Positions 1,913 through 18,517 of a stretch of DNA of 64,000 nucleotides are shown here, in pieces. A program made the translations under genes and the position numbers. The stretch is from Thermocaproicibacter melissae. Lineage in GTDB: Bacteria; Bacillota; Clostridia; Oscillospirales; Acutalibacteraceae. The notes beneath the pieces were generated by a model. That model searched no databases and was not told where the DNA came from. It saw only the letters and a program-made list of their open reading frames with translations. How positions within the stretch are numbered: position 1 is the first letter of the stretch; every line of letters begins with the position of its first letter. The DNA lies in NCBI RefSeq assembly GCF_024498295.1, contig NZ_CP101827.1:1740001-1804000 (forward strand), given 5' to 3'.

Positions 1913-2938
1913 TTACGCTTCGGAAAGGTTGTCTGCCATTGCCCGCAGCAATTGACGGGTGCTGTCTCCGCCGTGTTCCCAGTAGAACAAGCCTGCCAAA
2001 TCACGCTGTTTGACATATTCGCACTTGCAGCGAATCGACTCTGGGTCGTCATAGGAAATGAACGTACTGCCGTTAAACAGCCACGGTGCCTTTGCTTCAT
2101 CGTCCCAATACCGGACATAGCCGTTCTTGTTGATATAGGATTCCACAAGCTCGTCATAATTCGGGCCGTAGCCACCCGCGGACTCCGTCAGCTGCAGAAA
2201 ACCGTGATTGCGGTCCTGCACATGCTCCCACTTGCGGGAATACATTGCCGCGCCGAGAACAATTTTGTTCTTCGGTACACCGGCCTGCTCAAATAAACGG
2301 ACAGCGGCATCTCCGCTGGTGCGGTTCAGGTCGCCTGTTACCGTGTAAAGATTGGTGTGGTGCCCGGTCAACGTATGAAATCCGCACCGCAGGTCGTAGG
2401 TCATGACAAAGACAAGGTCCAAGTACAGCTGGACTAAATCCATCTGCGTATTTTCAATGTAGTACCGGTCTGCTCCGGCTGCTATGGTCAACAGGCGGTG
2501 CTGCGGGAATGCGGCATCAAACGCATTTCGGATTTCGCGGCACAGCAGCGTAAAATTCTGTTTATCCTCAGGGCGGGCTTTAATGAAGTTTTCCGGGCAA
2601 CAGGGGTACTCCCAGTCTAAGTCGACGCCGTCGAGTCCGAATTTCTTGACCGTCTCCACACAAGACTGCGCGATTTTCCGCCGACCGGCTTCCGTCGCAC
2701 TGCCGTCCGAAAAAGAGCCTTCCTCCTTTCCCACCAATGAAAGCAGAATTTTTAAGTTCGGATTCCACTGCCGAATCTGCTCGATTTGATCCAGTCCGGT
2801 CATGTGTCCTGTATAAATTGCCCCGTCGTCAATTTGTCCGAACGCCAGCATCAGGTGTGTCAGCTTCTGCGCATCCTCACGGGTAAAGTGCGCAGGGACA
2901 AACTGGCTGAGCATATAACCTGCCAAAACACGTTTCAC
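1913..2938 (-). CDS. GH18 glycosidase, cytoplasmic (chitinase / endo-beta-GlcNAcase type)
   Basis: Glycoside hydrolase family 18 TIM-barrel of 341 residues. The catalytic signature DGVDLDWEYP gives D103, D106, D108 and the acid E110. The other family motifs are present (KLTHLMLAF near the N-terminus, VMTYDL, and a final GLFYWEHGGD). The family cleaves beta-1,4 bonds after GlcNAc with help from the substrate N-acetyl group. There is no signal peptide, sorting signal or binding module, so it should act in the cytoplasm on imported oligosaccharide. The start is a GTG that shares one base with the TAG stop of the upstream GH18 gene (TAGTG). It resembles that neighbour along its whole length, so the pair arose by tandem duplication. 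Whether it is a chitinase or an endo-N-acetylglucosaminidase cannot be told by eye. Confidence 0.93.
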   Translation of the reverse strand: MKRVLAGYMLSQFVPAHFTREDAQKLTHLMLAFGQIDDGAIYTGHMTGLDQIEQIRQWNPNLKILLSLVGKEEGSFSDGSATEAGRRKIAQSCVETVKKFGLDGVDLDWEYPCCPENFIKARPEDKQNFTLLCREIRNAFDAAFPQHRLLTIAAGADRYYIENTQMDLVQLYLDLVFVMTYDLRCGFHTLTGHHTNLYTVTGDLNRTSGDAAVRLFEQAGVPKNKIVLGAAMYSRKWEHVQDRNHGFLQLTESAGGYGPNYDELVESYINKNGYVRYWDDEAKAPWLFNGSTFISYDDPESIRCKCEYVKQRDLAGLFYWEHGGDSTRQLLRAMADNLSEA

Positions 2939-3957
2939 TAATGTTCATCCCCAATATACAAAGACTCGTGTGCTGCACGCAGAAGCGTGCGGGTTGTGTC
3001 GCAGCCGTGTTCCCAGTAAAACACACCCGCGTAGCCCTGCTGACGCACATAATCGCATTTGCATCGAATCGATTGTTCATCATCGTAAGAAATAAAGGTG
3101 TCCCCGTTAAAAAGATACGGTGCTTTACAAACGTCGTCCCAATAACGCTTATATCCGTTCTTGTCAATATAATCGGCCAGCAGCTCGTCGTAATGCGGGC
3201 CGTATTCACCGCGCGTCTTGGCGATCTGCAGATAGCCGTTGTAGCGATTCGGTACCCCTTTCCACATCCGTGTGTAGAACGCCATGCCGATTGCGATTTT
3301 TTCCTTCGGCACACCGGCGGCAACAAATGCACGTGCCGCCGAGTCGGCACTATCTAAGAAGATATCCCCAACAGGCGTATACAAATTGGTGTGGTGCCCA
3401 GTCAGGATTTGGAACGCCCCGCGCAAATCATATGTCATGATATATACGTAATCGAGGTACTTCTGCACGTCCTTCATCTGGGTGCTGTCAAGAAAATATT
3501 GCCCCGCACCCACTGCGCTGGTTAGGAGCAAATGGTCTCCGACAGCATTCAGCTGGTTGCGGATAGCCTCAAGCAAGAGGGTGTAAGTCTTGCGGTCTGC
3601 TGGGTTTGCTTCCAGTCCGTTTTCTCCGCAGCATGGATACTCCCAATCGATGTCTACTCCGTCTAAGCCGTAACGGCGGACAATTGCCGCCAAATCTTCG
3701 GCAATCTGCAGGCGGCCCTCCTGCGTCAGGCAGGGGGTGGAAAATTCTCCGCCAAAACAGACCGAGCATTTTAGCTCCGGGTTCCATTTGCGAATCTGCG
3801 GAATGCAGGAAACCCCCTCCTCCGAAACCAGAACTGCCCGACCATCACGGACCGTACCGGCAGCAATATTCAAATGCGTCAGTTTTCGTGCATCGTCAGC
3901 TGTTAAGTCCTTTACGTTTTCGTTAATGCAATACCCTGCTAGAATTTTTTTTGACAT
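2938..3957 (-). CDS. GH18 glycosidase, second tandem copy
   Basis: Family 18 hydrolase of 339 residues, paralogous to the next gene downstream. The catalytic signature DGVDIDWEYP gives D99, D102, D104 and the acid E106. The YDL barrel motif (IMTYDLRGAF) and the C-terminal GVFYWEHGCD motif are also present. It has no signal peptide. The start ATG at 3957 follows an AGGGGCGG ribosome site. It lies 24 bases after GH20 and overlaps the next gene by one base, so it is clearly co-transcribed. Keeping two intact copies suggests different chain-length or linkage preferences (inference). With GH20 and GH130 it could process a chitobiose-containing core. Confidence 0.93.
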   Translation of the reverse strand: MSKKILAGYCINENVKDLTADDARKLTHLNIAAGTVRDGRAVLVSEEGVSCIPQIRKWNPELKCSVCFGGEFSTPCLTQEGRLQIAEDLAAIVRRYGLDGVDIDWEYPCCGENGLEANPADRKTYTLLLEAIRNQLNAVGDHLLLTSAVGAGQYFLDSTQMKDVQKYLDYVYIMTYDLRGAFQILTGHHTNLYTPVGDIFLDSADSAARAFVAAGVPKEKIAIGMAFYTRMWKGVPNRYNGYLQIAKTRGEYGPHYDELLADYIDKNGYKRYWDDVCKAPYLFNGDTFISYDDEQSIRCKCDYVRQQGYAGVFYWEHGCDTTRTLLRAAHESLYIGDEH

Positions 3958-3981: not shown

Positions 3982-5835
3982 TCAAACACAGTCCCGCAGG
4001 AATGCGCACAAATCCTGCACCGTAGCACGAATGCGGTATAGTTCGCTTTCCTTGTTGCGGATACGCCACAATTCGGTGAAGCACTGCAGCCACAGCTCCA
4101 ATTCAACGGCAAGGGTGCCGCAGTCCAGCGCTAGCGGAGTTGTTTCCGCGTGATACGCATATTTCTTCAGCGCGAGGCAGGCGGCGTTCATCAAAGCTGC
4201 GCCGCGAGCCGCGCAGAGGAATTCTTTAAAATCCGTGCGGCGCGGTTCCGGCGCAGTAAAGCCGACAAGCTGCTGTTCAATTTCTAAAATTTTTTTATAA
4301 CCGTTTAGCGCTTTGTCGGCATCCATGTGCTCGATACGCTCGGAATCCTGCTTTGCGCGTTCAATGGAGAGCAGCTGCGACTCTCGCCAGCAAACAACGT
4401 CCTGCCAAGTGCCGACCTGATTCATCTCCAACTCGGTGAGCAAATCCATCAGCTTTTCGGACTGTTCGCCGAACTCCAAGCGAGCATAAGCGCGGCAGAT
4501 TTCCTGCCAGCTGCGCCGGTCGCCGGGATTCCAAGAGAGTGCGGCGCCGGTCGCCATGCCGGGCATGGAGTTGGCAAACAGGTTAATGTGCCCGTAGTCG
4601 CCCCAGTCCGTATTAAGCATTCCTCGCGCACCGTACTTGGTTCCGTACTTTGCCATCTGCCCGATATTTTCATACGCCCCGTCCAAAATGTTCATCATCA
4701 CATTCCAACCGCATACACCGGGGCAAACCATGAAATCAATGCCGGAATCCGCAAGGACTTTGATCTCCTGCTCGTTAACCTTGCGTCCGTAGTTCCAATA
4801 CAAACAGGTGGTGCCTCTGGGCAATTCGCGAAGATACTGAGGGCTTTTCAGGATAATGTCACTCCAGAAAAGGACCTTTTTCCCTTTGCTCTGCACATAT
4901 GCGATAATCTGCTTAAGGAAGTCCACGTAAAGACGGTCCTTCCCTATTTTTTCGGCAAGCGCCGCACTCTTGCCGCAGCCGATGTCAAAAGTTTCGTCAC
5001 AGCCGATGTTGACCTGATTGGAGGTAAACAACGGCAGGTACTGATCCAGCATTTCTTTCACGAGCTGCAGACTGTCGGGATTGGACGCATCCAAGGTGTG
5101 GTGGGTCATACGGTCATACCACGCAAACGGTGCCGCGTCGTCAACCTCCAATTCACAGAAACGGCGCCATGTTTTGGTTTTCAAGACCTCATAAAGATGC
5201 CCGAACGTGGCAATGGACGGCACCAGCTCAATGTGACGTTCACGGCAGTATTCGTCCAGCTCCAGAATTTCTTCCGCAGTCAGTGGGTCCTTGCCGGTCC
5301 ATGCTTCGCTGAAGCCACGGAATGCAAAGGTGTGTTCCACATAAAGCTGCAGTTGATTGATCTTATAGAAGGCAAGTCGTTCGGCAAGTTCTTTGAGTGT
5401 TTGCAGAGTCGGCACTTTTCCGCGTGTCACATCGTGGAAAAAGCCGCGCGTCTGCATACCGGGTGCATCTTCAATGAGCAGACCGGGCCACTGAGTACCG
5501 CATTGGCGCACAAGCTGCCGCAGCGTTTGAATTCCCCAAAAGATGCCGGCGCTGCCGCCGCTGAGTTCCGCCCCCGATGAAGTGATTTTCAGGCAGTATG
5601 CGCCTTCTTCCTCCTCATCGCGCAGGCGCAGAAAAAGTCCCGGGCCAACCGGCTGCGGAGCCTTCTCAATGGAGATTTCGGTGCAGACCGTGCGGCAAAG
5701 CTCCGAACGGAACTGCTTTGCCGCGCAGAATTCGCTGTAGCCGCAGTTGGTATCCAGCGTAATTACGAACTTCGGACCTATAAGAAAAGATTCACCGGTT
5801 TCCGTCAATTTTTTCGGAAGGGGGAGAAATTGCAT
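3982..5835 (-). CDS. GH20 beta-N-acetylhexosaminidase, cytoplasmic
   Basis: Glycoside hydrolase family 20 enzyme of 617 residues that removes terminal beta-linked GlcNAc or GalNAc. An N-terminal GH20b-like domain occupies about residues 1-125. The catalytic barrel starts near LLIEDAPGMQTRGFFHDVTR. The paired catalytic Asp-Glu are D280-E281 in VNIGCDETFD. Downstream aromatic and Asp motifs (VLFWSDI, NTDWGDYGH) line the substrate pocket in this family. The C-terminal ~170 residues are helical, as in large clostridial GH20 proteins. There is no signal peptide, so it should act on imported glycan. Start ATG 5835 has GGAGATGGG upstream. It is followed 24 bases later by GH18. The region just before it holds a broken GH35 gene. 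Confidence 0.93.
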   Translation of the reverse strand: MQFLPLPKKLTETGESFLIGPKFVITLDTNCGYSEFCAAKQFRSELCRTVCTEISIEKAPQPVGPGLFLRLRDEEEEGAYCLKITSSGAELSGGSAGIFWGIQTLRQLVRQCGTQWPGLLIEDAPGMQTRGFFHDVTRGKVPTLQTLKELAERLAFYKINQLQLYVEHTFAFRGFSEAWTGKDPLTAEEILELDEYCRERHIELVPSIATFGHLYEVLKTKTWRRFCELEVDDAAPFAWYDRMTHHTLDASNPDSLQLVKEMLDQYLPLFTSNQVNIGCDETFDIGCGKSAALAEKIGKDRLYVDFLKQIIAYVQSKGKKVLFWSDIILKSPQYLRELPRGTTCLYWNYGRKVNEQEIKVLADSGIDFMVCPGVCGWNVMMNILDGAYENIGQMAKYGTKYGARGMLNTDWGDYGHINLFANSMPGMATGAALSWNPGDRRSWQEICRAYARLEFGEQSEKLMDLLTELEMNQVGTWQDVVCWRESQLLSIERAKQDSERIEHMDADKALNGYKKILEIEQQLVGFTAPEPRRTDFKEFLCAARGAALMNAACLALKKYAYHAETTPLALDCGTLAVELELWLQCFTELWRIRNKESELYRIRATVQDLCAFLRDCV

Positions 5836-5943
5836 AAAAACCCATCTCCGTCATATATCAACAGTATAGTAAAATCTGCCGGTCTAAAACTTTCGGATGA
5901 GAAAAACAGGCAAAAACCGGAAGTTCAGGCGCACCCGCTTACA

Positions 5944-6084
5944 TCAAGCGGTATTCAGTCCACACGCCGCAAACTTCCGAAGGCGGTCTTCCCAGTATTC
6001 GGGAACCACATGGAAATAATGAATCGCTCCGGACAGAATCCGGAACGGTTTTCCATCCAATAGGAAACAATCACCATTTATCAC
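5944..6084 (-). pseudogene. GH35 beta-galactosidase remnant (N-terminal ~46 residues only)
   Basis: Reading the minus strand from a GTG at 6084 gives a 46-residue stretch containing FLLDGKPFRILSGAIHYFHV, then VPEYWEDRLRKFAACGLNTA, and a TGA at 5944-5946. This is the hallmark N-terminus of GH35 beta-galactosidases, where the same motif normally continues into VETYVPWNLHE and several hundred more residues. Here nothing after GLNTA fits the family in any frame, and the next 110 bases lead straight into GH20. No good ribosome site is seen at the GTG. I read it as the leftover of a deleted galactosidase gene. It lies in operon order between GH130 and GH20, so the pathway probably once removed terminal beta-galactose. 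Confidence 0.8.
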
Positions 6085-6124
6085 AAATTGACGCAAAAAT
6101 GCATTTATTTCCTAATTAGGTGAG

Positions 6125-6201
6125 CGGCAGGATATGTCCCTGATGAAATGTCCGAGTGAACGTAAACGCTCGGCACATTTTTGCATAGACACATCCTGCC
6201 G
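6125..6201. repeat. Nested inverted repeat, 77 bp, unexplained structured element
   Basis: Two nested stems are visible. The outer arms are 6125-6138 and 6188-6201 (13 of 14 bases pair, one A/C mismatch at 6134/6192). The inner arms are 6146-6151 with 6175-6180, continuing as 6152-6158 with 6167-6173 after a one-base bulge. The internal loop on the plus strand holds CTGATGA (6140-6146). No U-run follows on either strand, so it is not a simple terminator. It lies between GH130 and the GH35 remnant. It could be a structured RNA, a processing hairpin within the operon mRNA, or a small REP/MITE-like element. No second copy was noticed in this window. Confidence 0.6.
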
Positions 6202-6272
6202 GTTTTCACCATTGTCCTCAAGCACACAACAGCACTAAAAAGTTTTTCAGGCTGGGATTCTGCGGTTCGGCA

Positions 6273-7268
6273 TCACCCAAGCTCCAGCGGATATTTTTTC
6301 ATGTGCTCAATCAAGTCATCGACTGTTGTGAAGGCAAGTCCCGTAACCGTATCGGCACAGCCATAATAAATCGCAATCCGGCCGGTTGCAGGATCCGCTA
6401 GAGCAGCACACGGGAAGGTTACGTTTGGTACGTCTCCAACACGTTCATAAAGTTCCTGCGGTCCCAGAATGTAGAACCGTGAACGCCGCTTGACAATCCA
6501 CGGCTTTTCCAAATCCAACAGCGCACAGCCCACGCGGTAAACGAAACCGTTGCAGGTGTTGATGACGCCGTGGTAAATCAGCAGCCAGCCTTCATCCGTC
6601 TCTAACGGCGTAGGGCCTGGGCCGATTTTCTTGGATTGCCAAGCTGTGCAGTCCTGATTAACTGCACCCATCACATAGCGGTGTTTGCCCCAGAAAGTAA
6701 GGTCGGGGCTGAAGCTGCAGAAAATATCGCCGAACGGCGTATGACCCGTGTCGCTCGGGCGGCTCAGCATTGCATAGTACCCGCCGATTTTTCTGGGGAA
6801 CAGCACGCCGTTGCGATTGTACGGCAGGAAGGCGTTTTCCAACTGATAAAAGGTCTTGAAGTCAAAAGTGTATCCGACGCCGATGGTGGGGCCGTGGTAG
6901 CCGTTGCACCATGTGATATAATACCGATCCTCCAGGAAGCAAACACGCGGGTCGTAGCGGTATTCCCGCACAGTGACCTCGGGATCGCCTTCAAACCGGA
7001 TTGGGTCAGGGGAAATATTCCAATGTATTCCGTCGTCACTGAAACCGGGGTAAATATCCATGCTGACACCCCGACTGTCGCAGCGGAATACACCGGCGAA
7101 TTCGGAGCCGAACGGCACCACAGCCGAATTGAAGACACTATTCGACGTCGGAATCGCGTTGCTCTGAATCACAGGGTTGCCGCTGTAACGCCAAACCGGT
7201 GCCGTGCAGCCGGCCGGGCGATCCTCCCAGGGAATATTTTTCAATTCCTTGCCGATTAATTTACTCAT
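6273..7268 (-). CDS. GH130 glycoside phosphorylase (beta-mannosyl type)
   Basis: Five-bladed propeller phosphorylase of 331 residues. Family GH130 enzymes split beta-1,4-mannosides (Man-GlcNAc, Man-Glc or mannooligosaccharides) with phosphate, giving mannose-1-phosphate. Visible family motifs are [16 protein letters not shown], the YDPRV segment with the likely catalytic Asp D106, [12 protein letters not shown] and [21 protein letters not shown]. Length is usual for the family and there is no signal peptide. The start ATG at 7268 has GGAGA eight bases upstream. It lies 77 bases after the importer lipoprotein gene. Beside GH18 and GH20 genes, the mannosyl-GlcNAc specificity (N-glycan core) is the most economical reading, but the subfamily cannot be fixed by eye. 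Confidence 0.92.
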
Positions 7269-7345: not shown

Positions 7346-8863
7346 TTACTTCTTGCTGCTCAGGAACTTGTCTACCTGCTCCTGCTCAACCTTCAACAGC
7401 TCGTCCGCGCCGTTCTGTTTCAGGCTGTCGAGGAATTTACCCAGCATCTGGTCAGGATCAGCCACACCCAAAGTAAGCGGATCGTAGTACTGCTTAATTA
7501 CATTGGACAATGCGGCAATCTGATTCTTCACATTGGTATCATCAAACTTATAGCCGAGCAGCGGATTGGCGACAGCCTGTGCGTTCCAGTCTTTGTAAAC
7601 CTGTGCAATGTCTGACGGATAGCTAATGACCCAGTCTTGGTTAAACACGCTGCCGAACTGCCAGCCCATATCGTAGCCGTAGGCTTTGCTGATCTGCTTG
7701 ACCTGGCCGTTCTCCAAGATGTAATGTGTTCCTTCGATGCCGTGACGCAGGAAATTACCGACGGCCTTATCTGTGTTCACAAGGTTAAGGAACTGCAGAG
7801 CAACTTCTTTGTGCTGAGAGTTTGCGGAAATGCAGTGGAAGTCGGAAGCGCCCGTGAAAAAAACTGGTGTCAGCGGGACATAATCCTCAGTGTGTCCAAC
7901 CGTATTGGAATATGTCTTTTCAAAATCCGGCGCATAGCCGATGATCCATGAGAACAGGCGGCCGGCCTTGTCATCAGCGTTACGGGTATCGTCCGAGTAG
8001 GCCTGCGGGTTCTGTACCAGATATCCTGCTTTGTACCACTGATGCACGGTGGAGCAGAATTCCTTGAATTCCGGTGTTGCATACTGGTTGAAAACGGTGT
8101 TTTCCTTCTGGTTTGCAAAAGCTTCATGGCCCGGAATGTTTACCTCACCAACAACGCCAGAACCAGCATCAACGGCAAAGCCGGCGGCACGCCAGAGGGA
8201 AGCTGCGCAGAGGCCGATAATGTTCGGAGCTTTCTGATGAAGTTCGCCCAGAACGCCGCCCAAATCTTTCCAGCTCTTTATCTTGCTGTAGTCGATGTCG
8301 TACTTTTTAGCAATATCGGCATTGACCATCAGTACGTACTGCAGTCCCTCTTCCTTGTAGATCGGAATGCCGTAGATATCTCCGTTAACTTTTGCACTAT
8401 CCCACACATTTTCCGGAATGGTAGAATAGGTCTCCGGCGCGTATTTCTTGAGTGTCTCTTCATCCAGTTTCATAAACGCGCCTATGGTTGCAGTCTGTGT
8501 GTAGTTCGGGGTACCCCATGTGGACGAGTAGCAAATGTCGTAGTTTTGACCGGAAGAAATGATAACCGGCATCTTGGTGCCGTATTCGCCCGCCTGGAAG
8601 AAGTGAGCGTTTACGGTCGCGTTAATTTTGTCCTTGACATATTCGTTCATCTTGTCAATAACTTTGGACTGATCCGGCTGAATCGTATCCAGGAACATAT
8701 ACCAATCCAGGGTAACAGTCTTTCCGCTTTTTGTTGCGGCCGCATTCGAGTCTGCCGTTGATGAACTGGTTGTCGAACCGTTACTGCAGGCAGTGAGAGA
8801 GAGAATCATCGCCGCAGAAAGCACTGCACTAACGGCTCTTTTGATTCGGGTTGATGCTTTCAT
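7346..8863 (-). CDS. Sugar ABC importer, solute-binding lipoprotein (LplA-like)
   Basis: Extracellular binding protein of 505 residues that captures an oligosaccharide for the two permeases encoded just upstream. A lipoprotein signal is clear: MKASTRIKR, a hydrophobic stretch, then the lipobox LTAC with C26 as the lipidated residue, followed by a Ser/Thr-rich linker. The mature part has the periplasmic-binding-protein fold features of family 1 carbohydrate receptors. The ATG at 8863 is chosen because GGGAGGA lies six bases upstream; a longer reading to 8914 lacks a ribosome site. No ATPase gene is in the cluster, as is normal for LplABC/YtcP systems that share a common MsmX-type ATPase (family knowledge). 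Confidence 0.95.
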   Translation of the reverse strand: MKASTRIKRAVSAVLSAAMILSLTACSNGSTTSSSTADSNAAATKSGKTVTLDWYMFLDTIQPDQSKVIDKMNEYVKDKINATVNAHFFQAGEYGTKMPVIISSGQNYDICYSSTWGTPNYTQTATIGAFMKLDEETLKKYAPETYSTIPENVWDSAKVNGDIYGIPIYKEEGLQYVLMVNADIAKKYDIDYSKIKSWKDLGGVLGELHQKAPNIIGLCAASLWRAAGFAVDAGSGVVGEVNIPGHEAFANQKENTVFNQYATPEFKEFCSTVHQWYKAGYLVQNPQAYSDDTRNADDKAGRLFSWIIGYAPDFEKTYSNTVGHTEDYVPLTPVFFTGASDFHCISANSQHKEVALQFLNLVNTDKAVGNFLRHGIEGTHYILENGQVKQISKAYGYDMGWQFGSVFNQDWVISYPSDIAQVYKDWNAQAVANPLLGYKFDDTNVKNQIAALSNVIKQYYDPLTLGVADPDQMLGKFLDSLKQNGADELLKVEQEQVDKFLSSKK

Positions 8864-8931: not shown

Positions 8932-9867
8932 TTAACCCTTTACGCTGCCAATCGTAATGCCGCGCACGAAGTACTTTTGGAAGAACGGATATGCGAACAG
9001 AATCGGCGTCATAATGAGTACGGTCAACGCCATGCGGACACTGTCAGTCGGCATATTCAGTGCCATGCGAATACCGTCTGCTGAACTTGCGAAGGAAGCG
9101 TTCGTTGTTAAGTAATCAAGAGTCGACTGCAGCTTCTGCAGCAGCACCTGCAGCGGTTCCTTGGACGGTGTATTGATATAAAGCAGACCGGTAAACCAGT
9201 CGTTCCACAGGCCGACCATAGAAAACAGGGCAATGGTTGCGAGCGCCGGCCTTGCAATCGGAATCACAATTCTGAAGAAGATTACCCATTCGTCGGCGCC
9301 GTCAATTTTCGCCGCTTCAATCAGCGAATCCGGAATTGTCTGAGTGTAAAACGTGCGCAGGATGATTGCATTCCACGCGCTGCACAACGTCGGCAGAAAC
9401 AGAATCAGAATGTTGTCACCCAAATGCAGCAGATTTGTGTTGACAATGTAGGACGGAACCATGCCGCCTGAAAAAAGCATCGTGAAGAACAGATAAAAAG
9501 TAAGCTGCTTTCTGTACTTGAAATCTTTTCGGTAAATAACGTAGGCAATCATGCCCGTTACCACAACGGTCAGCACCGTACCGACCACCGTTACAAACAC
9601 AGAAACGCCCAAAGAACTCAACAGCTGCTCCGAACTTCCGAGCAGGTATATGTATCCATCTAGCGACCATGATTTTGGAACAAAGCTGTAGCCGATTTCT
9701 CGAATACTTTCCGCGCTGCTGAAAGATATAATATACACCAGCGCCACGGGAGCCAAAAAGATGATAGATAAAATCACCATTATGGCATTTAGAATGATAT
9801 CGTGCAACAGAACCTTTTGGCCGACTCTGGCAACTTTAGTTCCGAACTCGTCCGAATTTCTATCCAT
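8932..9867 (-). CDS. Sugar ABC importer permease (YtcP/LplC family)
   Basis: Inner-membrane permease of 311 residues of the CUT1 carbohydrate class. About six hydrophobic segments are seen, the first near residues 28-50. The ATPase-contact EAA loop is EAAKIDGADEWVIFFRIVIP. The conserved C-terminal end FFQKYFVRGITIGSVKG is typical of YtcP/LplC proteins. ATG at 9867 has AGGAG nine bases upstream. It sits between the other permease and the lipoprotein gene, in the usual lplB-lplC-lplA order. Confidence 0.95.
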   Translation of the reverse strand: MDRNSDEFGTKVARVGQKVLLHDIILNAIMVILSIIFLAPVALVYIISFSSAESIREIGYSFVPKSWSLDGYIYLLGSSEQLLSSLGVSVFVTVVGTVLTVVVTGMIAYVIYRKDFKYRKQLTFYLFFTMLFSGGMVPSYIVNTNLLHLGDNILILFLPTLCSAWNAIILRTFYTQTIPDSLIEAAKIDGADEWVIFFRIVIPIARPALATIALFSMVGLWNDWFTGLLYINTPSKEPLQVLLQKLQSTLDYLTTNASFASSADGIRMALNMPTDSVRMALTVLIMTPILFAYPFFQKYFVRGITIGSVKG

Positions 9868-9889
9868 ACTGCTTACACTCCTATATCAA

Positions 9890-10810
9890 TTAGAACAAAG
9901 CGTTTTCATTGTCGATCTTCCGAATTGCTGCGTTGGCAAGCAAAATTGTTACAAATCCGACGGCGGACTGGAACACGCTGGCCGCAGCGGACATATTGAT
10001 GTTGCCCATCGACTGCAGCGCATTGTAAACATAAACGTCAATTGTTTCCGTTGCCGGGTAAAGCTGTCCCTGATTCATGGGCATCTGATAGAAAAGGCCG
10101 AAATCCGAATTGAAAATATGGCCCAATGCCATAATCGTGGTAATCACCATCATCGGTTTCAGTGACGGCAGCGTGATGTACCAAATCTGCTGCCACTTGG
10201 ATGCACCGTCCAAAATTGCCGCTTCGTAATACTCTACGCTGATGCCGCAGATGCACGCAAGGTATACCACGCTGCTATAGCCGATGCTCTTCCACTGACT
10301 CGTCAAAATTAAAATGGCCGGCCAGTATTTTGGGTCAGCGTAAAAATAAACGGGGTCTTTGCCAAACATCTGCAGTACAGAATTGAAAAATCCATTGGTG
10401 TCTAAAAGCGCCAACCCTATGTAAGACATGATGACCCAGGACAGGAAGTTCGGCATAATGGAAATCGTCTGGTAAATCTTTGACGCCAGAGGACGCCGAA
10501 CTTCGTTGAATGCCAGCGCCAGAATCACCGGCAGTACAAGACCTAAAAGAATAAAAAGGAAATTGTAGCCCAGCGTTAATTTTGTAATCTCCCACGCCGT
10601 GTTCGACGCAAACAGGAACTGGAAGTTTTTAAATCCGCACCACGGACTTCCCAGAAGGCCCTGTTCGTAATTGTAGCTCTTAAATGCAATTACAATGCCG
10701 AACATCGGCAAATATGCAAAAAGGAACACTAGAATTACGCCAGGTGTAGCCAACAGAAACAGCTGCCAGTTTTTTTTGAACTCTTTTTTGAATCCTTGAA
10801 GAAAATGCAA
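9890..10810 (-). CDS. Sugar ABC importer permease (LplB family)
   Basis: Inner-membrane permease of 306 residues, partner of the YtcP-like permease. It begins with a basic segment (FKKEFKKNWQLF) and a first membrane helix at about 18-38, and has an EAA loop EAAILDGASKWQQIWYITLP. I prefer the TTG at 10810 because GAGGAG lies eight bases upstream. The GTG three codons earlier (10819) overlaps that ribosome site. This is the first clear gene of the glycan operon. It follows a ~250-base leader from the -10 box near 11060. Confidence 0.93.
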   Translation of the reverse strand: MHFLQGFKKEFKKNWQLFLLATPGVILVFLFAYLPMFGIVIAFKSYNYEQGLLGSPWCGFKNFQFLFASNTAWEITKLTLGYNFLFILLGLVLPVILALAFNEVRRPLASKIYQTISIMPNFLSWVIMSYIGLALLDTNGFFNSVLQMFGKDPVYFYADPKYWPAILILTSQWKSIGYSSVVYLACICGISVEYYEAAILDGASKWQQIWYITLPSLKPMMVITTIMALGHIFNSDFGLFYQMPMNQGQLYPATETIDVYVYNALQSMGNINMSAAASVFQSAVGFVTILLANAAIRKIDNENALF

Positions 10811-10850
10811 TATTCTCACTCCTCAGAAATTATCACTGCTGCATAACTTT

Positions 10851-10958
10851 CTACTTTTCGTCCTGACGCGTGAAGATACGTCTAATTCGAATGTGTAAAA
10901 GCTTTTCAAAAAATCTGCTGTATCCATCGATGGGATCGGTATATACTTCCTTTTTCAA
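10851..10958 (-). CDS. Possible short leader ORF or gene-end remnant before the importer operon
   Basis: On the minus strand a frame open from 10996 reads protein-like residues to a TAG at 10851-10853, including the run KKEVYTDPIDGYSRFFEKLL and then a basic tail. From the TTG at 10958 it would be 35 residues, with only a weak ribosome site. The composition (charged, aromatic, no simple repeats) looks more like coding sequence than random DNA. It could be a regulatory leader peptide in the ~250-base 5' leader, or the C-terminal end of a deleted gene. I do not recognise a family. Confidence 0.25.
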   Translation of the reverse strand: MKKEVYTDPIDGYSRFFEKLLHIRIRRIFTRQDEK

Positions 10959-11004
10959 TAACCCAAAGCGTTCCGGAAGGTCCCTGCTTGGAATTCAAGA
11001 TCAT

Positions 11005-11029
11005 TTAATTGTGAAATATAAACAATTAA
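11005..11029. repeat. Short inverted repeat in the importer operon leader
   Basis: TTAATTG (11005-11011) and CAATTAA (11023-11029) form a 7-base inverted repeat with an 11-base spacer, about 35 bases downstream of the TATAAT box. It could be an operator for the YesN-type regulator or a weak mRNA hairpin. Nothing in the sequence decides between these. Confidence 0.3.
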
Positions 11030-11059
11030 TTTGTTGATCTGCCACTCTTTTCATTTGTA

Positions 11060-11065
11060 ATTATA
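11060..11065 (-). promoter_or_regulatory. -10 box of the glycan importer operon
   Basis: Minus-strand TATAAT at 11060-11065. No good -35 hexamer lies 16-18 bases upstream, as expected of a promoter needing an activator such as an AraC-type response regulator. Transcription from here would give a leader of about 250 bases before the first permease gene. Confidence 0.5.
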
Positions 11066-11262
11066 CCATCGCTATCTTAGAGAACACATCGGTAAGATTT
11101 TTATAATACGTGTACTTTTTTCATAGAAATTCTGTATTTGTCTTTTTAAGAACAACAGCCAAGGGGTAATGATTTCGCATCTCTGGCATGAGTTGCCATT
11201 AAATTTGATATTCAAAGGAAAAAATTTCGGTCCATCGTTCTGGTGGAACACGATGGACATCA

Positions 11263-11303
11263 CACAAAAAAGAGTAACGCCGACAATTTTCAGCGTTACT
11301 CTT
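11263..11303 (-). terminator. Terminator of the uxaB-uxaA operon
   Basis: An 11-base perfect stem (11270-11280 with 11293-11303) is followed on the minus strand by a run of six T. It lies 81 bases after the uxaA stop. A second hairpin (TCCATC-GTTC arms at about 11231-11256) lies just beyond it. Confidence 0.85.
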
Positions 11304-11383
11304 CTCTCTGATTTTACCTTTAAAAAGTTACTTATATTTTTAGTTGCATAAGGCTTGCCACGCATCATCCGATAGCCTGAGAG

Positions 11384-12868
11384 CTATAACGTGACTCCAT
11401 CCTTAAAGATTGCCAATTCGCGCTTATCGAACGCTTCGGATTTTGTTGTCTGCTTTCCGGAAGCGACATTGATGACATAATCGAGCAATTCCTGTGCGAG
11501 CTCCGAAAGTTCGGTGCCAGTCAATAATTTCCCTGCGTCGAAGTCAATCCATCTTGCCTTTTTGCGAGCTAGTTCCGAGTTGCTCGAGATTTTTACCGTT
11601 GGAACCGGGCAGCCGAAAGGAGTACCGCGCCCTGTGGTGAACAAAACCATGTGCGCTCCCGAAACAGCGAGAGCCGTAGAAGCTACAAGGTCATTGCCGG
11701 GTGCCTGTAGTAGATTGAGGCCGTTTTCATGAACCGACTGGCCATAACGAAGCACATCGTTAACCGGCGCCGTTCCTCCCTTTTGGACACAGCCGAGGGA
11801 CTTATCCTCCAAAGTGGTAATTCCACCCGCCTTGTTGCCGGGAGACGGGTTGGAATCAATTTTTTCGTTGTATCTCATGAAATATTTTTTGAAGTTGTTG
11901 ATGAGGTCTACGGTTTTATCAAAGACTTCCTTGCTGCGGCAGCGGTTCATCAAAATCGTTTCCGCGCCGAACATTTCCGGCACTTCCGTTAAAATCGCCG
12001 TACCTCCCTGCGCAATCAGCAAGTCGGGCAAAGCACCCACAAGCGGATTTGCCGTAATTCCGGAGAAGCCGTCTGACCCGCCGCATTTTAAGCCTATGGT
12101 AAGATGCTCAACACTGCACGGCTCCCGCTTAAACTGCGAAGCATACCGGCATAATTCCTCCACAATCTTTACGGCGTCTTCTACTTCATCCTCGTGTTCC
12201 TGGCAAACCAGAAATTTCACACGGTCACTGTCATAATCGCCCAGTACTTTTTTCAACTCGTCAATATTGCTGTTTTCACAGCCAAGGCCGAGGACGAGCA
12301 CAGCTCCTGCGTTCGGATGATGAATCAGTCCGGACAGTGCCAATTCCGTGTTCCGCTTGTCCTGTGAAAGCTGTGAGCAGCCGTACGGATGGCTATATGA
12401 ATAAATCCCGTCCAATTCCGGAGTTAAAAATTTCTGAGATTCCTCTTCAATCAATTTGGCTATGGAATTGACGCAGCCAACCGTCGGAATAATCCACACT
12501 TCATTGCGGATTCCGACCTTGCCGTCTTTCCTCTTATAGCCCAGAAAAGTTCTGGGGGTTTGGGGTTCCAGCGGCTTGAAGCTGGGCTCATAGGAATAAT
12601 CCAGCAAATCTCCCAGCCTGGTTTTGGTATTGTGAGTATGGACCCAATCGCCGGCAGCGATATTGCAGGCCGCTGTGCCGATTGGAAAGCCATACTTTAC
12701 GATGCATTCGCCTTCCGGAATATTTGCTATGGCAATCTTGTGGCCTGCGGCGATGTTCGCGTTCAGCGTGATCGTTTTTCCGTCTGCCGGAATGTTCTCG
12801 CCTTTTTTCAGGTCTTGCAGAGCAACAACTACATTATCCTTCGGATTGATTTTATAAATTGCTTTCAT
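11384..12868 (-). CDS. uxaA: Altronate dehydratase
   Basis: Cytoplasmic Fe-dependent hydro-lyase of 494 residues turning D-altronate into 2-keto-3-deoxygluconate. An N-terminal SAF-like domain (about 1-95, ending near GDWVHTHNTKTRL) precedes the large catalytic UxaA domain (FLGYKRKDGKVGIRNEVWII, GCSQLSQD, GLKCGGSDGFSGITANP, TTGRGTPFGCPVPTVKIS). Full family length. One base separates its ATG from the uxaB stop (TAAGATG). Its ribosome site AAAGGA lies inside uxaB, so the two are coupled. Confidence 0.97.
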   Translation of the reverse strand: MKAIYKINPKDNVVVALQDLKKGENIPADGKTITLNANIAAGHKIAIANIPEGECIVKYGFPIGTAACNIAAGDWVHTHNTKTRLGDLLDYSYEPSFKPLEPQTPRTFLGYKRKDGKVGIRNEVWIIPTVGCVNSIAKLIEEESQKFLTPELDGIYSYSHPYGCSQLSQDKRNTELALSGLIHHPNAGAVLVLGLGCENSNIDELKKVLGDYDSDRVKFLVCQEHEDEVEDAVKIVEELCRYASQFKREPCSVEHLTIGLKCGGSDGFSGITANPLVGALPDLLIAQGGTAILTEVPEMFGAETILMNRCRSKEVFDKTVDLINNFKKYFMRYNEKIDSNPSPGNKAGGITTLEDKSLGCVQKGGTAPVNDVLRYGQSVHENGLNLLQAPGNDLVASTALAVSGAHMVLFTTGRGTPFGCPVPTVKISSNSELARKKARWIDFDAGKLLTGTELSELAQELLDYVINVASGKQTTKSEAFDKRELAIFKDGVTL

Positions 12869-12869
12869 C

Positions 12870-14339
12870 TTATGATTCCTTTACAAGCGCCTCGACTGTC
12901 GCTTTCATGCCGTTCTTTTTCATACTGTCCAGATCTTCGCAAACCATATCCACGAAATGATTGTACTTAGTGAGGTCCTCGCCCCAGAAATCCGTGTTCG
13001 AGGCAAACGCGGTAACGAATTCGCGGGTAGGCTTGCTTTTGCTGTTTGCCGCAAAGAATTCCAGAACCTTCCGGTCGTCTTTAATCTCATAGCGCTCGCC
13101 GTTACGGTCGCCGACCAGCACGCCGTTCTCCAGCTTATCGGAAGTGTAAAACGCCATCAAAGCGGCGAAGGAGAAGGTTAAAAATTTTGGCGGAGTCTGA
13201 TTCTTTGCATAGTCATCTTTGAACGTCGGCAAGATTCTCGTTTTCCACTTGGAAACGGAATTCAGTGAAATGGAAAGCAGCGCATGGTCGACAAACGGAT
13301 TGTCGAAACGCTCATAGACTGCTTTTGCAAAGTCGATTGCTTCCTGCCACGGCAGTTTGACCGTGGGAACGATTTCATCAAACACGATTTTGTCCATCAG
13401 TTTACGGACAAGGGCATCGTTCATGCACTCACGCACAATGTTTTTGCCCATAAGGTAAGCGGCAAGAACCGTGGAAGTATGTGCACCGTTTAAGATGCGG
13501 ACTTTTCTTTCGCGATACGGCTTCTGATTATCGGTAAAAATGACATGCATACCGACTTTGTCCAGCGGGAACTTCTCAGAAATATCCTTGTCGCTTTCGA
13601 TAACCCAAAGGGCAAACGGTTCACCGGTATCGAGCAGCTGATCTTCATATCCCAGCTGTTCGCAGATTTCCGCTGCCTGATTTTGGGGATATCCGGTAAC
13701 AATGCGGTCAACCAGTGTGCTGCAAAAGATATTGTTTTCGCAAATCCACTTTTTGAACTCTTCGCCCAGGTTCCACAAATCGACGTACTTCAGCACGCAC
13801 TCTTTGAGGCGGATTCCGTTGTCCTCGATCAGCTCAACCGGCAGAATGATGAGGCCCTTGCTAGGGTCGCCGTGGAATGTTTTGAATCTTTCGTACAGGA
13901 ACTTTGTCAGCTTCCCCGGATAAGTGTTCGGCGGGGTCAATTCAAATTTATCATCCGCATCAAACACAATTCCCGCTTCCGTTGTGTTGGAAACTACGAA
14001 CTGCACCGTGTCAAGACGGGCAAGCGCCATATATTCCTCATAGTCGTTATAAGAACTTATCGCTTTCTGCACGCTAGTAATGACGCGGTTTTCCACATAG
14101 ATTTTCCCGTTTCTCTTGCCGCGTAGGGAGACGGTGTAAATGTTATTCTGCGCGTGAAAGCGTTCCATGTCTCCGAACGGTCTCGGTTTCACGATGGCAA
14201 TATCGCCGTTGAAAACTCCTTTTTCATTGGCAACATCAATCATATAATCGACGAAGCCTCTTAAAAAGTTGCCTTCACCGAATTGCACTACTTTGATTAT
14301 TCTGGGTTTACGAGTGTAAAGTTCGTTGATTTTCTTCAT
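12870..14339 (-). CDS. uxaB: Tagaturonate reductase (altronate oxidoreductase)
   Basis: NAD-dependent oxidoreductase of the mannitol dehydrogenase family, 489 residues, reducing D-tagaturonate to D-altronate. The N-terminal nucleotide-binding segment VVQFGEGNFLRGFVDYMIDV and the catalytic stretch RKVRILNGAHTSTVLAAYLMG are clear. Length matches UxaB rather than the shorter UxuB. First gene of the uxaBA operon, read from a consensus promoter at 14379-14407. A LacI-type operator lies between promoter and gene, so galacturonate-responsive repression by the divergent regulator is expected. Confidence 0.96.
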   Translation of the reverse strand: MKKINELYTRKPRIIKVVQFGEGNFLRGFVDYMIDVANEKGVFNGDIAIVKPRPFGDMERFHAQNNIYTVSLRGKRNGKIYVENRVITSVQKAISSYNDYEEYMALARLDTVQFVVSNTTEAGIVFDADDKFELTPPNTYPGKLTKFLYERFKTFHGDPSKGLIILPVELIEDNGIRLKECVLKYVDLWNLGEEFKKWICENNIFCSTLVDRIVTGYPQNQAAEICEQLGYEDQLLDTGEPFALWVIESDKDISEKFPLDKVGMHVIFTDNQKPYRERKVRILNGAHTSTVLAAYLMGKNIVRECMNDALVRKLMDKIVFDEIVPTVKLPWQEAIDFAKAVYERFDNPFVDHALLSISLNSVSKWKTRILPTFKDDYAKNQTPPKFLTFSFAALMAFYTSDKLENGVLVGDRNGERYEIKDDRKVLEFFAANSKSKPTREFVTAFASNTDFWGEDLTKYNHFVDMVCEDLDSMKKNGMKATVEALVKES

Positions 14340-14359
14340 GTCGTTATACCTCTTATGTT

Positions 14360-14373
14360 TGTAAGCGCTTACA
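14360..14373. promoter_or_regulatory. LacI-family operator at uxaB
   Basis: Perfect 14-base palindrome TGTAAGCGCTTACA, with the central CG pair usual for LacI-family sites. It starts about where transcription from the uxaB promoter should begin, so a bound repressor would block the start. The identical sequence occurs at 14586-14599. A catabolite-control (cre-like) role is possible because cre sites are related, but the paired placement points to the local regulator. Confidence 0.85.
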
Positions 14374-14378
14374 TTCTC

Positions 14379-14407
14379 ATTCTAGCTACCATAAATGAAA
14401 AAATCAA
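14379..14407 (-). promoter_or_regulatory. uxaB promoter
   Basis: Minus-strand -35 TTGATT (14402-14407), 17-base spacer, -10 TAGAAT (14379-14384). Expected start near 14372, within the operator. Confidence 0.8.
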
Positions 14408-14552
14408 TGCGCTCAAAAAAAGTATTTATTATTTTGCGGTTACTTTATACGTTTTGGAAATTCAGCAGATAAATTTGCAATTTGTATAGATAGTACTATC
14501 TTTCATCTATTGAAAATATCTAAAAAAGCCCATGTATTTTCTATATTTACTA

Positions 14553-14581
14553 TTGATTTATCAGCAGAAATACATTATACT
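14553..14581 (+). promoter_or_regulatory. Promoter of the LacI-type regulator and uxaC
   Basis: Plus-strand -35 TTGATT (14553-14558), exactly 17 bases, -10 TATACT (14576-14581). The operator at 14586 follows four bases after the -10 box, implying autoregulation. Confidence 0.85.
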
Positions 14582-14585
14582 CTTT

Positions 14586-14599
14586 TGTAAGCGCTTACA
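14586..14599. promoter_or_regulatory. LacI-family operator at the regulator gene
   Basis: Second copy of TGTAAGCGCTTACA, here extended to a 16-base palindrome (14585-14600). It overlaps the expected transcription start of the regulator-uxaC unit. With the uxaB site 226 bases away, looping between the two is conceivable. Confidence 0.85.
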
Positions 14600-14613
14600 A
14601 CAGAGGCGGTTGT

Positions 14614-15597
14614 ATGAACATTTATGACATCGCAAAGCGAAGCGGCGTGTCGATTGCAACGGTTTCGCGCGTGCTCAACGGAAGCGAGAAAGTCAGCCCA
14701 AAAACACGGGAAAAAGTTCTGAAGGTCATGCAGGAAGAAGGATATACGCCGAATATATTTGCCCGCGGGCTTGGACTGAACTCCATAAAGATGATTGGCA
14801 TTTTGTGTACGGATGTTTCAGACATCTTCTACGCCAAAGCTGTTTCGCTGGTGGAAGGGCTGTTAAGGCAGAACGGCTTTGACGCGCTGCTGTGCTGCAC
14901 CGGAAACGAACTGGAGAACAAGAAAAAAAGCCTGGATCTTTTGCTGAAAAAAAGAGTGGACGCCGTAATCCTGATCGGCTCTGCCTTCAAGGAAAACACA
15001 GACAACTCCCACATTGAAAATGCCGCAAAACAGGTTCCGGTCATCATCATAAACGGTTTGGTTGAGCTGCCAAACACATACTGCGTTCTGTGCGATGAAC
15101 AATCCGCGGTGAGCCAAAATGTCCAACTTCTGCATAAGCAGGGTTACGACGATATACTATATCTGTATGATGTCCTCACTTACAGCGGTTGTATTAAAAT
15201 TTCAGGCTACAAGGATGGTCTGAAAAAATGCAATCTTCCGTTTCAGGAAACGCTAATGGTTAAGGTGCCGAAATCCATTGACGGCGTTACGGCAAAAGTT
15301 ACCGAACTGCTGGGTGAGGGACTGAAATTTTCCGCCGTGATGGCATCGGAGGATTTACTGGCAATCGGCGCGCTGAAAGCGCTGCAGAAATTTAATCTGA
15401 CAATGCCGGTGATTGGATTCAACAACTCGATTCTGGCACAATGTTCGTCCCCTGCCCTGACTACGGTGGACAATATGCTGGATACGCTGTGCCCGACCGC
15501 CGTTCAATTATTGGTCGACATCCTTGAAAATAAAACAGTGCCGCAAAAAATCGTAATTTCTTCAAAATTGATTGAACGAGATACCTTTCCTATTTAG
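14614..15597 (+). CDS. LacI-family regulator of hexuronate genes
   Basis: Transcription repressor of 327 residues. The N-terminal helix-turn-helix and hinge are clear (YDIAKRSGVSIATVSRVLNG, then a YTPN segment). Residues from about 58 form a periplasmic-binding-like effector domain (IGILCTDVSDIFYAKAVSLVEG). Start ATG 14614 follows AGAGGCGG. It is divergent from uxaBA and 35 bases before uxaC. Two copies of one palindrome flank it, so it most likely represses both units until a hexuronate intermediate binds. The effector is inference; UxuR/ExuR-like roles in Clostridia are often filled by LacI proteins. Confidence 0.93.
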   Translation: MNIYDIAKRSGVSIATVSRVLNGSEKVSPKTREKVLKVMQEEGYTPNIFARGLGLNSIKMIGILCTDVSDIFYAKAVSLVEGLLRQNGFDALLCCTGNELENKKKSLDLLLKKRVDAVILIGSAFKENTDNSHIENAAKQVPVIIINGLVELPNTYCVLCDEQSAVSQNVQLLHKQGYDDILYLYDVLTYSGCIKISGYKDGLKKCNLPFQETLMVKVPKSIDGVTAKVTELLGEGLKFSAVMASEDLLAIGALKALQKFNLTMPVIGFNNSILAQCSSPALTTVDNMLDTLCPTAVQLLVDILENKTVPQKIVISSKLIERDTFPI

Positions 15598-15632
15598 GAA
15601 TTAAATTAACAAATATACGGAGGAACTCAAAA

Positions 15633-17039
15633 ATGAAGCAATTTATGGATGAAGATTTCTTACTGTCCAACGAAACTGCGAAAACCCTGTATCATGACTA
15701 TGCGGAAAAAATGCCGATTGTGGATTATCACTGCCACATCAATCCGCAGGAGATTGCGGAAGACCGCCAATTCTCAAATATCACACAGGTTTGGCTCGGC
15801 GGCGACCACTACAAGTGGCGTATGATTCGTTCCAACGGCGTCGAGGAAAAGTATATCACCGGCGACGGCACCGACCGCGAGAAATTCCAGAAATTTGCGG
15901 AATCTCTGCCGAGAGCAATCGGCAACCCGCTTTATCACTGGACGCATCTGGAGCTGAAGCGGTATTTCGGCTATGACGGCGTATTAAACGGCGACACAGC
16001 CGAAGAAGTCTGGAATCTCTGCAACGCGAAGCTGCAGACCAAAGAGCTGAGCGTTCGCGGCATCATTGAGAAGTCCAATGTAAAGCTGATTGGCACAACC
16101 GACGACCCGATTGATTCTCTGAAATGGCACAAAGCCATCAAAGAGGACAGCACTTGCAAGGTGAAAGTGGTTCCGACATGGCGTCCGGACAAAATCATGA
16201 ACATTGAAAAGCCTACTTTCGCCGAGTATGTTTCCTCCCTTGCCAAGGCCAGCGGAATGGAAATCAAAACGGTCAAGGATGTATGCGCTGCGCTGGAAAA
16301 ACGGCTGAATCACTTCGAGGAAATGGGCTGCAAAGCCTCCGACCACGGCATGAACTATGTCATTTACAATCCGGCAAGCGAAGCCGAAGTTGAAGAAATC
16401 TTCAAAAAAGGCTTAAACGGCGAAGCACTGACCCAAGATGAAGTGGACAAATACAAATATGCCGTTTTGATGTTCCTGGCAAAGCAGTACGCAAAGCGCG
16501 GCTGGGTCATGCAGATTCACTACGGAACCATCCGCGACACAAACACCGCCATGTTTGAGCGTCTCGGCCCCGACACCGGCTTCGACTGCATCGGAACCCC
16601 GAACTGCGCAGAAGCGATTACCAAGTTCATGGATGCGCTGAATCAAACCAATGAGCTGCCGAAGACCATTCTGTACTCCCTCAATCCGATCGACAACCAG
16701 ATGCTTGACTCGGTTATCGGATGCTTCCAAGGGACTGAAGCGGCCGGAAAGATTCAGCACGGCGCAGCCTGGTGGTTCAATGACAACAAGACCGGCATGA
16801 TTGACCAGATGACAAGCCTCGCGAACCTTTCCGTTCTGGGCAACTTTGTCGGCATGTTGACGGATTCGCGCAGCTTCCTGTCTTACACAAGGCATGAGTA
16901 TTTCCGACGCATCCTTTGCAACCTGATTGGCACATGGGTGGAAAACGGCGAGTATCCTTGCGACATGAAAACACTTGGCCAAATGGTACAGGATATTTCC
17001 TACAACAACGCTGTGCGCTATTTCGGATTCGACGTGTAA
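15633..17039 (+). CDS. uxaC: Glucuronate / galacturonate isomerase
   Basis: Uronate isomerase of 468 residues converting D-galacturonate to D-tagaturonate and D-glucuronate to D-fructuronate. It belongs to the amidohydrolase superfamily; the metal-binding HxH is in VDYHCHINP near the N-terminus. Other family motifs are WVMQIHYGTIRDTN and MLTDSRSFLSYTRHEYFRR. ATG 15633 is preceded by GGAGGA. It is co-transcribed with the regulator. With uxaB and uxaA across the divergent promoter it completes galacturonate to 2-keto-3-deoxygluconate. KdgK and KdgA are not in this window. Confidence 0.97.
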   Translation: MKQFMDEDFLLSNETAKTLYHDYAEKMPIVDYHCHINPQEIAEDRQFSNITQVWLGGDHYKWRMIRSNGVEEKYITGDGTDREKFQKFAESLPRAIGNPLYHWTHLELKRYFGYDGVLNGDTAEEVWNLCNAKLQTKELSVRGIIEKSNVKLIGTTDDPIDSLKWHKAIKEDSTCKVKVVPTWRPDKIMNIEKPTFAEYVSSLAKASGMEIKTVKDVCAALEKRLNHFEEMGCKASDHGMNYVIYNPASEAEVEEIFKKGLNGEALTQDEVDKYKYAVLMFLAKQYAKRGWVMQIHYGTIRDTNTAMFERLGPDTGFDCIGTPNCAEAITKFMDALNQTNELPKTILYSLNPIDNQMLDSVIGCFQGTEAAGKIQHGAAWWFNDNKTGMIDQMTSLANLSVLGNFVGMLTDSRSFLSYTRHEYFRRILCNLIGTWVENGEYPCDMKTLGQMVQDISYNNAVRYFGFDV

Positions 17040-17052
17040 TTTCATCATAGCG

Positions 17053-17089
17053 AAAGCGGAGTACCGGCAAACGGTACTCCGCTTTTTTA
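17053..17089 (+). terminator. Terminator after uxaC
   Basis: A 14-base perfect stem (17053-17066 with 17072-17085) and 5-base loop GCAAA, ending in a T-run to 17088. It lies 13 bases after the uxaC stop. Confidence 0.95.
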
Positions 17090-17117
17090 TATTCCTCAAG
17101 TTTTTATATTCCTCAAG
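17084..17117. repeat. Perfect 17-bp tandem duplication
   Basis: TTTTTATATTCCTCAAG occurs twice head to tail (17084-17100 and 17101-17117). The first copy starts in the terminator T-run. Likely a replication-slippage duplication with no function. Confidence 0.8.
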
Positions 17118-17225
17118 GCAGAACTCTGTTCTATATTTTCTTATAGTGCAATAAAATCATCCTTGAAATATGCTATGCTGATGGTACAAATTCATCTGCG
17201 GAAGAGATTTGAGGATGATGATGTT

Positions 17226-18433: not shown

Positions 18434-18517
18434 ATTCGGTTGGGCGGCTGCTGCCGCTTCAAGAAGTTACTCCTTGGGTGGGGAGTCCGTTTGGGCTCCC
18501 CACTTTTATTCTTTTTT
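18434..18517 (+). promoter_or_regulatory. Folded leader with terminator: candidate cation-sensing riboswitch
   Basis: The transcript from the consensus promoter would begin near 18418. It contains a GCGGC-TGCT-GCCGC hairpin (18445-18458), an ACTCC segment (18470-18474, just before 18475), and a terminator (18478-18503 plus T-rich tail). ACTCC can pair with GGAGT at 18482-18486 in the 5' arm of the terminator, giving mutually exclusive folds. Layout and target gene match known Na+ (DUF1646) or Li+ (nhaA) riboswitch leaders, but I cannot assign a class by eye. Confidence 0.5.
18478..18517 (+). terminator. Leader terminator before the antiporter
   Basis: An 11-base stem (18478-18488 with 18493-18503, one U-G pair), loop GTTT, then a T-rich tract TTTTATTCTTTTTT. 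It ends 12 bases before the start codon, overlapping the region of the ribosome site, so read-through would need an alternative fold. Confidence 0.85.

Follow-up and report, generated by a model that had tools for sequence, protein, structure and literature searches.

The GH130-GH20 operon and its GH35 remnant

We analysed a window of 64,000 nucleotides (the whole stretch of DNA under study) from the genome of Thermocaproicibacter melissae, the left end of which carries a probable glycan-degradation operon on the minus strand. In the direction of reading, the operon consists of two ABC permeases (9890-10819 and 8932-9867, both PF00528), a solute-binding protein of the DUF3502 family (7346-8863; PF12010, 75 bits), a GH130 gene (6273-7268; PF04041, 228 bits), a gene of the GH20 beta-hexosaminidase family (3982-5835; PF00728 and PF02838), two GH18 genes (first copy 2938-3957, PF00704, 202 bits; second copy 1913-2938, 227 bits), a response regulator with an AraC-type DNA-binding domain (822-1883; PF00072 and PF12833), and the C-terminal part of a histidine kinase (1-832), all on the minus strand. 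The gene run goes on beyond the window: the adjoining locus to the left (L225, bases 1728000-1742000 of the same contig) contains, according to Pfam, the histidine kinase, GH29, GH38, and a xylosidase-like GH3.

Finer assignment of these enzymes was attempted with NCBIfam models and solved structures. The two GH18 proteins score 136 and 145 bits against ChiD and 28 and 27 bits against Endo-H, all far under the cut-offs. The only NCBIfam match of the GH38 protein is mannosylglycerate hydrolase, again under the cut-off, and its best solved relatives are Ams1 (presumably the yeast-type enzyme) and other alpha-mannosidases. The best models for GH3 are beta-xylosidases (NF041776, 714 bits, under its cut-off of 1250), and the best solved relatives of GH29 are an alpha-L-fucosidase and an exo-alpha-L-galactosidase. 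The nearest solved structure to the GH130 protein is UhgbMP (4udg, E 1.5e-149), a GH130 enzyme acting on Man-beta-1,4-GlcNAc, an activity that is predicted here. Elsewhere in the window, we observed a Na+ riboswitch at 18438-18487 (plus strand; RF03071, 49.9 bits against a gathering score of 40.5).

A remnant of a GH35 gene, covering about codons 1-49, lies between GH130 and GH20 (5944-6096, minus strand). The minus strand of 5944-6084 translates into 46 residues (VINGDCFLLDGKPFRILSGAIHYFHVVPEYWEDRLRKFAACGLNTA, including FLLDGKPFRILSGAIHYF), followed directly by a stop codon (TGA, 5946-5944), while frame 1 of the plus strand gives letters unrelated to this reading; the preliminary description had named no strand. 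The 46 residues match the GH35 profile PF01301 with 46 bits (curated cut-off 27; E 7.3e-12), fragment residues 7-45 aligning to profile positions 2-40 of 319; the complete GH35 catalytic barrel is absent, since the fragment holds just these positions. A search of the whole genome (1,960,795 bases in 2 contigs, 99.97% complete; E <= 0.001) found GH35 at this single place (E 1.1e-10). Given the profile match and the uniqueness of the place, the observation is real and clearly exceeds chance, and the preliminary description was right in seeing here a GH35 N-terminus of 46 residues that ends in a stop. The fragment is a clean 46-codon frame with no internal lesions; a possible in-frame start is the TTG at 6096, which gives an ORF of 50 aa; by eye, AGGAAA precedes this codon by 11 bases. 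A truncated GH35 pseudogene is the best reading of the fragment.

An intact counterpart in another genus

We searched the fragment against 398 genomes of the family (its own included), and 101 of them had a match. The best-scoring other genome is G423, a single contig of 2.9 Mb that belongs to the same family and to another genus. Its locus L185 contains the operon of the window in the same order, with an intact GH35 gene (580 aa, 9796-11538 of the locus) between GH130 and GH20; the full order is permease, permease, solute-binding protein, GH130, BNR_2, GH35, GH20, GH18, GH18, response regulator, histidine kinase, GH29, GH38, and GH3. T. melissae keeps this order, with only stumps at the BNR_2 and GH35 positions. 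Protein identities between the two operons are 91 and 88% for the permeases, 76% for the solute-binding protein, 94% for GH130, 84% for GH20, 86% for each GH18, and 77% for the response regulator, and the histidine kinase, GH29, GH38, and GH3 past the left edge of the window match their G423 counterparts one to one (80-89%).

The GH35 protein of L185 scores 402 bits against PF01301, has the beta-galactosidase accessory domains, and matches PDB entries 4mad (673 bits, query residues 9-564 of 580) and 4e8c (533 bits, residues 2-576), which we take to be the BgaC enzymes of Bacillus circulans and S. pneumoniae, respectively. It is thus like the bacterial BgaC type, from which the window copy differs in retaining only about residues 1-49 of 580. 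The remnant aligns to residues 6-49 of the L185 enzyme (77% amino-acid identity, 44 codons) and, in DNA, shares 80.7% identity over 109 bp without a single indel; the BLAST match stops at 5951, 4 bases ahead of the stop codon. The check proposed beforehand, a related genome with an intact GH35 gene between GH130 and GH20, therefore came out as predicted, and the syntenic gene places the loss of GH35 exactly between these two genes, as had been claimed.

By identity, the fragment is slightly nearer to the GH35 proteins of G110 and G292 (79%, 43 residues) than to that of G423 (77%, 44 residues), which has the top score; no match to GH130, GH20, GH18, or the solute-binding protein was listed in the stretches fetched around the G110 and G292 genes. 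The intact operon was found in one genome only, G423, so the direction of change is read from the stumps and a single reference. Among the matches listed, three frames are shorter than 300 aa: that of the window (55 aa), one in G063 (170 aa, its match starting 353 bp away from the end of a contig), and one in G357 (209 aa, 39% identity). Leaving the latter two out, we saw no comparable short form among the 101 genomes that had a match (398 family genomes searched), so the short form conserved among relatives, which had been named as the observation that would speak against decay, did not turn up.

A scar of two adjacent genes

In L185, a 328-aa gene of the BNR_2 family (a sialidase-like propeller family; 252 bits to BNR_2) lies between GH130 and GH35. 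The gap between GH130 and GH20 in the window is 437 bp, and its pieces align in order to the 2.9 kb of L185, with the middles of BNR_2 and GH35 absent. In the collinear alignment, the region of the BNR_2 start codon is kept and at least 735 bp are then missing; the 3′ piece of BNR_2 follows, and then the start of GH35 up to about codon 49; a further ~1.5-1.67 kb are missing before the alignment resumes in the spacer ahead of GH20. Short blocks within the alignment gaps (6264-6230 and 5927-5907) are insecure, and bases 5950-5907 have no secure partner.

The BNR_2 remnant (6117-6273, minus strand) begins with the start codon and first bases, which overlap the stop codon of GH130; the next 35 bases have no secure partner, and they are followed by the 3′ part (about codons 274-313), the middle being deleted. 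The stretch 6263-6106 aligns to the L185 BNR_2 gene with a score of 65 (the maximum of 1000 dinucleotide shuffles was 53), whereas controls behaved like chance: 152 of 1000 shuffles reached the score against the GH35 body, and 178 of 1000 on the reversed strand. One frame of the remnant reads EDNGENRQDV, where L185 has QDNGESWRNV. The stump also matches the corresponding place of a BNR_2 paralogue in its own genome, more weakly (31 of 1000 shuffles reach the score). The surviving spacer upstream of GH20 (5836-5906, minus strand) shares the stretch TATACTGTTGA with L185 and is 70% identical over 71 columns with 3 indels; 5949-5852 aligns to the L185 spacer with a score of 41.5 (maximum of 1000 shuffles, 37). 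Compared with the remainder of the L185 GH35 gene and the spacer, 5949-5869 scores at chance level (448 of 1000 shuffles do as well); more of the GH35 body was not found there. The loss had been described as that of a single galactosidase step; the loss of GH35 stands, and the BNR_2 stump, aligning as it does to the L185 gene, means that two adjacent genes are gone.

A sialidase function of the lost BNR_2 protein is only putative: its L185 counterpart matches Neuraminidase A (2ya4) by phmmer with E 2.3e-4 in residues 106-303 only; no NCBIfam family was found for it. Sialidases of GH33 carry as a hallmark the arginine of an RIP motif near the N-terminus. We did not see RIP near the N-terminus of the L185 protein, where SCHASS seems to take its place (by eye, unaligned).

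The BNR_2 remnant contains a strong stem-loop (6125-6201, minus strand; -48 kcal/mol, z -6.95 for 6105-6215). A repeated mobile element was considered and rejected, since the stem-loop occurs just once in the genome. In this stretch of the window, no Rfam family reached its gathering score, and a lax Rfam scan of 5830-6275 gave just SNORA69 (E 4), away from the stem-loop. The corresponding coding stretch of L185 folds too, though not unusually (-40.8 kcal/mol, z -1.39); L185 retains 15 of the 39 base pairs of the window fold unaltered, has 10 changed on one side and 4 on both sides, and breaks the other 10, in a comparison of two sequences only.

Age of the loss

The preliminary description called the loss recent, which our comparison does not bear out. 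Over its 44 codons, the GH35 fragment has 15 differences from L185 at codon positions 1 and 2, whereas six intact operon genes, taken in overlapping stretches of this length, show 7.8 +/- 5.1 (mean and sd); the count is elevated, but 10% of these stretches are as high as 15. Identity is 67% in the BNR_2 stump, with 5 indels in its 111 aligned columns, and 81% in the GH35 core, which has no indel over 109 columns. The BNR_2 stump thus looks old, and with it perhaps a part of the scar; the GH35 stump could be of later date or simply short.

The same position in other relatives

The position between GH130 and GH20 was compared in further genomes. In L009 (from the MAG UBA4883), the order is GH130, BNR_2, GH20, and GH38, and the BNR_2 gene is broken (6582-7110 of the locus): residues 9-113 are in one frame and 112-169 in another, with a weak match in the third frame (E 0.03) to residues 283-296. 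Since GH20 starts about 150 bases past the second piece, the second half of this gene is mostly missing. No trace of GH35 was found after the BNR_2 pieces (455 of 500 shuffles reach the score). The frameshift in L009 could be a sequencing error of the MAG, which explains the truncation less easily. The break differs from that in the window, at the same place between GH130 and GH20. In the congener G009 (L184), GH130 adjoins GH20 with a gap of 171 bp, in which no traces of GH35 or BNR_2 were found (122 and 451 of 500 shuffles reach the respective scores). The GH130-GH20 position is thus variable across relatives.

Among 80 GH130 loci (L002-L081), one has a GH35 match (L064) and one a BNR_2 match (L009) at E <= 1e-15, counts that understate the true number because many of the loci are short contigs. 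L064, from a Lachnospiraceae MAG, is another GH130-GH35 neighbourhood, in which GH130, GH35, a BT_1020-like propeller protein, GH125, and an alpha-L-fucosidase-family gene follow one another (9977-17359 of the locus).

Explanations for the fragment

Very likely, in our judgement, a GH35 gene has died and left the fragment as its N-terminal stump, the 437-bp gap being the scar of BNR_2 and GH35, eroded by internal deletions. Internal deletions that leave stumps in otherwise intact operons are known for carbohydrate-utilisation loci; compared with degenerate genes in such loci generally, two adjacent genes are affected here, and L009 shows a second, different break of BNR_2 at this place. The clean frame, its possible TTG start preceded by AGGAAA, and the stable stem-loop just ahead of it would also suit a functional micro-ORF or leader peptide derived from GH35, with its downstream stop placed to regulate GH20. 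That the frame is simply the conserved N-terminus of the enzyme, has no comparable short form among the relatives with a match, and shows differences at codon positions 1 and 2 on the high side makes such a peptide very improbable.

Equally improbable is arrival of the GH35 piece by recombination as a fragment, without a whole gene ever having existed in this lineage, although the sparse distribution of the operon's solute-binding protein would suit it. A search of the 398 family genomes with the solute-binding protein (E <= 1e-100) found five genomes, namely the own genome, G423 (76%), and three at 39-41%, so identities above 41% occur in only two genomes, of different genera; among all 10 remaining genomes of the G423 genus, the top-scoring match reaches 30% identity. 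The G423 operon also lies near two transposase or integrase genes. Against arrival as a fragment, the GH35 piece, the BNR_2 stump, and the GH20 spacer all follow the order of the intact operon, and both stumps start where the intact genes start. The least probable of these readings is an assembly error that deleted parts of two intact genes, since a misjoin does not make separate deletions together with the small indels and substitutions of the BNR_2 stump (67% identity, 5 indels), and the contig is 1.94 Mb long in a genome of 2 contigs.

The two genes on the left flank of the G423 operon (466-2589 of L185) belong to rve/HTH_21 and DDE_Tnp_1/DUF772. The sparse distribution of the solute-binding protein across genera and these flanking genes suggest that the operon as a whole may have moved, and may have done so between genera.

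Candidate substrate and remaining galactose capacity

From its gene content, the operon probably feeds on glycoprotein sugar chains. By Pfam, two GH18, GH20, GH38, and GH130 genes are present in one locus, the role of the GH18 proteins as ENGases being only putative, and a review (PMC10154615) names GH18, GH20, GH38, and GH130 in roles of N-glycan breakdown, with GH130 among the families that break Man-beta-1,4-GlcNAc. Together with GH29 and GH3, these families come near to the full complement required for dismantling complex N-glycans. The set of GH18, GH38, GH130, GH29, and GH3 fits complex N-glycans better than milk sugars, and we infer from it a complex N-glycan substrate, perhaps of plant type. 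Terminal galactose on the ancestral substrate, as proposed in the preliminary description, is a reasonable suggestion from the family membership of GH35, while the human-milk-type sugars offered as one source of it are disfavoured by the same set of glycoside hydrolases.

Under the dead-gene reading, the ABC transporter and the glycosidases, presumed intracellular, would still dismantle complex N-glycans: GH18 would cut the chitobiose core, GH20 would remove antennal GlcNAc, GH38 mannose, GH3 xylose, and GH29 fucose, and GH130 would phosphorolyse Man-beta-1,4-GlcNAc. The lost pair of BNR_2 and GH35 would once have removed the outer caps, with GH35 taking terminal beta-galactose. With this pair lost, the operon of this strain would depend on antennae that carry no galactose or have already been trimmed, or on help from a different galactosidase. 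The genome still has two LacZ-type GH2 genes, so a loss of galactose use by the cell is not borne out; no match to GH42 or GH125 was found in the genome at E <= 0.001. The galactosidase step can be called lost from this operon, but the cell as a whole may still possess it.

The identity of the galactose cap can be narrowed tentatively. The lost GH35 was perhaps a BgaC-like beta-1,3-galactosidase, judging from its nearest solved relatives 4mad and 4e8c. GH35 enzymes such as those of S. pneumoniae are described as acting specifically on beta-1,3 linkages (PMC5295233), and a plant complex N-glycan pathway is described in Bacteroides massiliensis with GH29, a beta-1,3-galactosidase, GH20, a mannosidase, and a GH3 beta-1,2-xylosidase (Crouch et al. 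2022, PMC9522356). There, GH29 fucosidases, the beta-1,3-galactosidase, GH20, the alpha-mannosidase, and the GH3 beta-xylosidase act one after another on a single glycan, as the predicted counterparts in the operon here would do; the Bacteroides pathway uses PNGase release, a GH2 galactosidase, and a GH92 mannosidase, where here GH18, GH35 (lost), and GH38 stand, and, unlike it, the genes here form one run with an ABC transporter and GH130. This resemblance, the position of 4mad and 4e8c as the closest solved relatives of the lost GH35, and the beta-1,3 specificity described for GH35 enzymes of the S. pneumoniae type make antennae of the plant type a fair guess.

A second BNR_2 gene, the paralogue mentioned above, is present at ~389.8-390.8 kb of the same contig (7814-8842 of L222); it is open through 342 aa and 63% identical to the BNR_2 protein of L185. 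Near it are ABC transporter-like genes, nagA, nagB, a NanE-like epimerase gene, and a DHDPS-family gene, whose protein matches nanA models only far under the cut-off. These surroundings suggest sialic-acid-like sugars and animal-type glycans, counter to the plant-type reading. That reading is weakened by this neighbourhood and by the review's statement that no GH18 or GH85 with activity on plant N-glycans had then been described (PMC10154615).

Meaning of the gene loss

As gene decay, the scar is an ordinary event of a well-known kind. Its value lies in being a concrete case of pathway trimming, in which the site is fixed, two genes are lost, another genus supplies the intact reference, and a further genome has a different break. 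A wider picture would be a Gram-positive, ABC-transporter-based system for plant-type N-glycans, in which the BNR_2 and GH35 genes form a removable cap module that is repeatedly lost, lineages split into users of whole antennae and users of trimmed glycans, and the stem-loop is a retained spacer that sets downstream expression; we regard this picture as speculative and, taken as a whole, unlikely. The locus also brings to light a compact operon, a candidate for the use of complex N-glycans, whose enzymes can be tested one by one. Given that the review states that no GH18 or GH85 active on plant N-glycans was then described (PMC10154615), the plant-type reading would be either new or wrong, and it is testable. 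The locus is thus a useful, testable example of gene loss within an operon.
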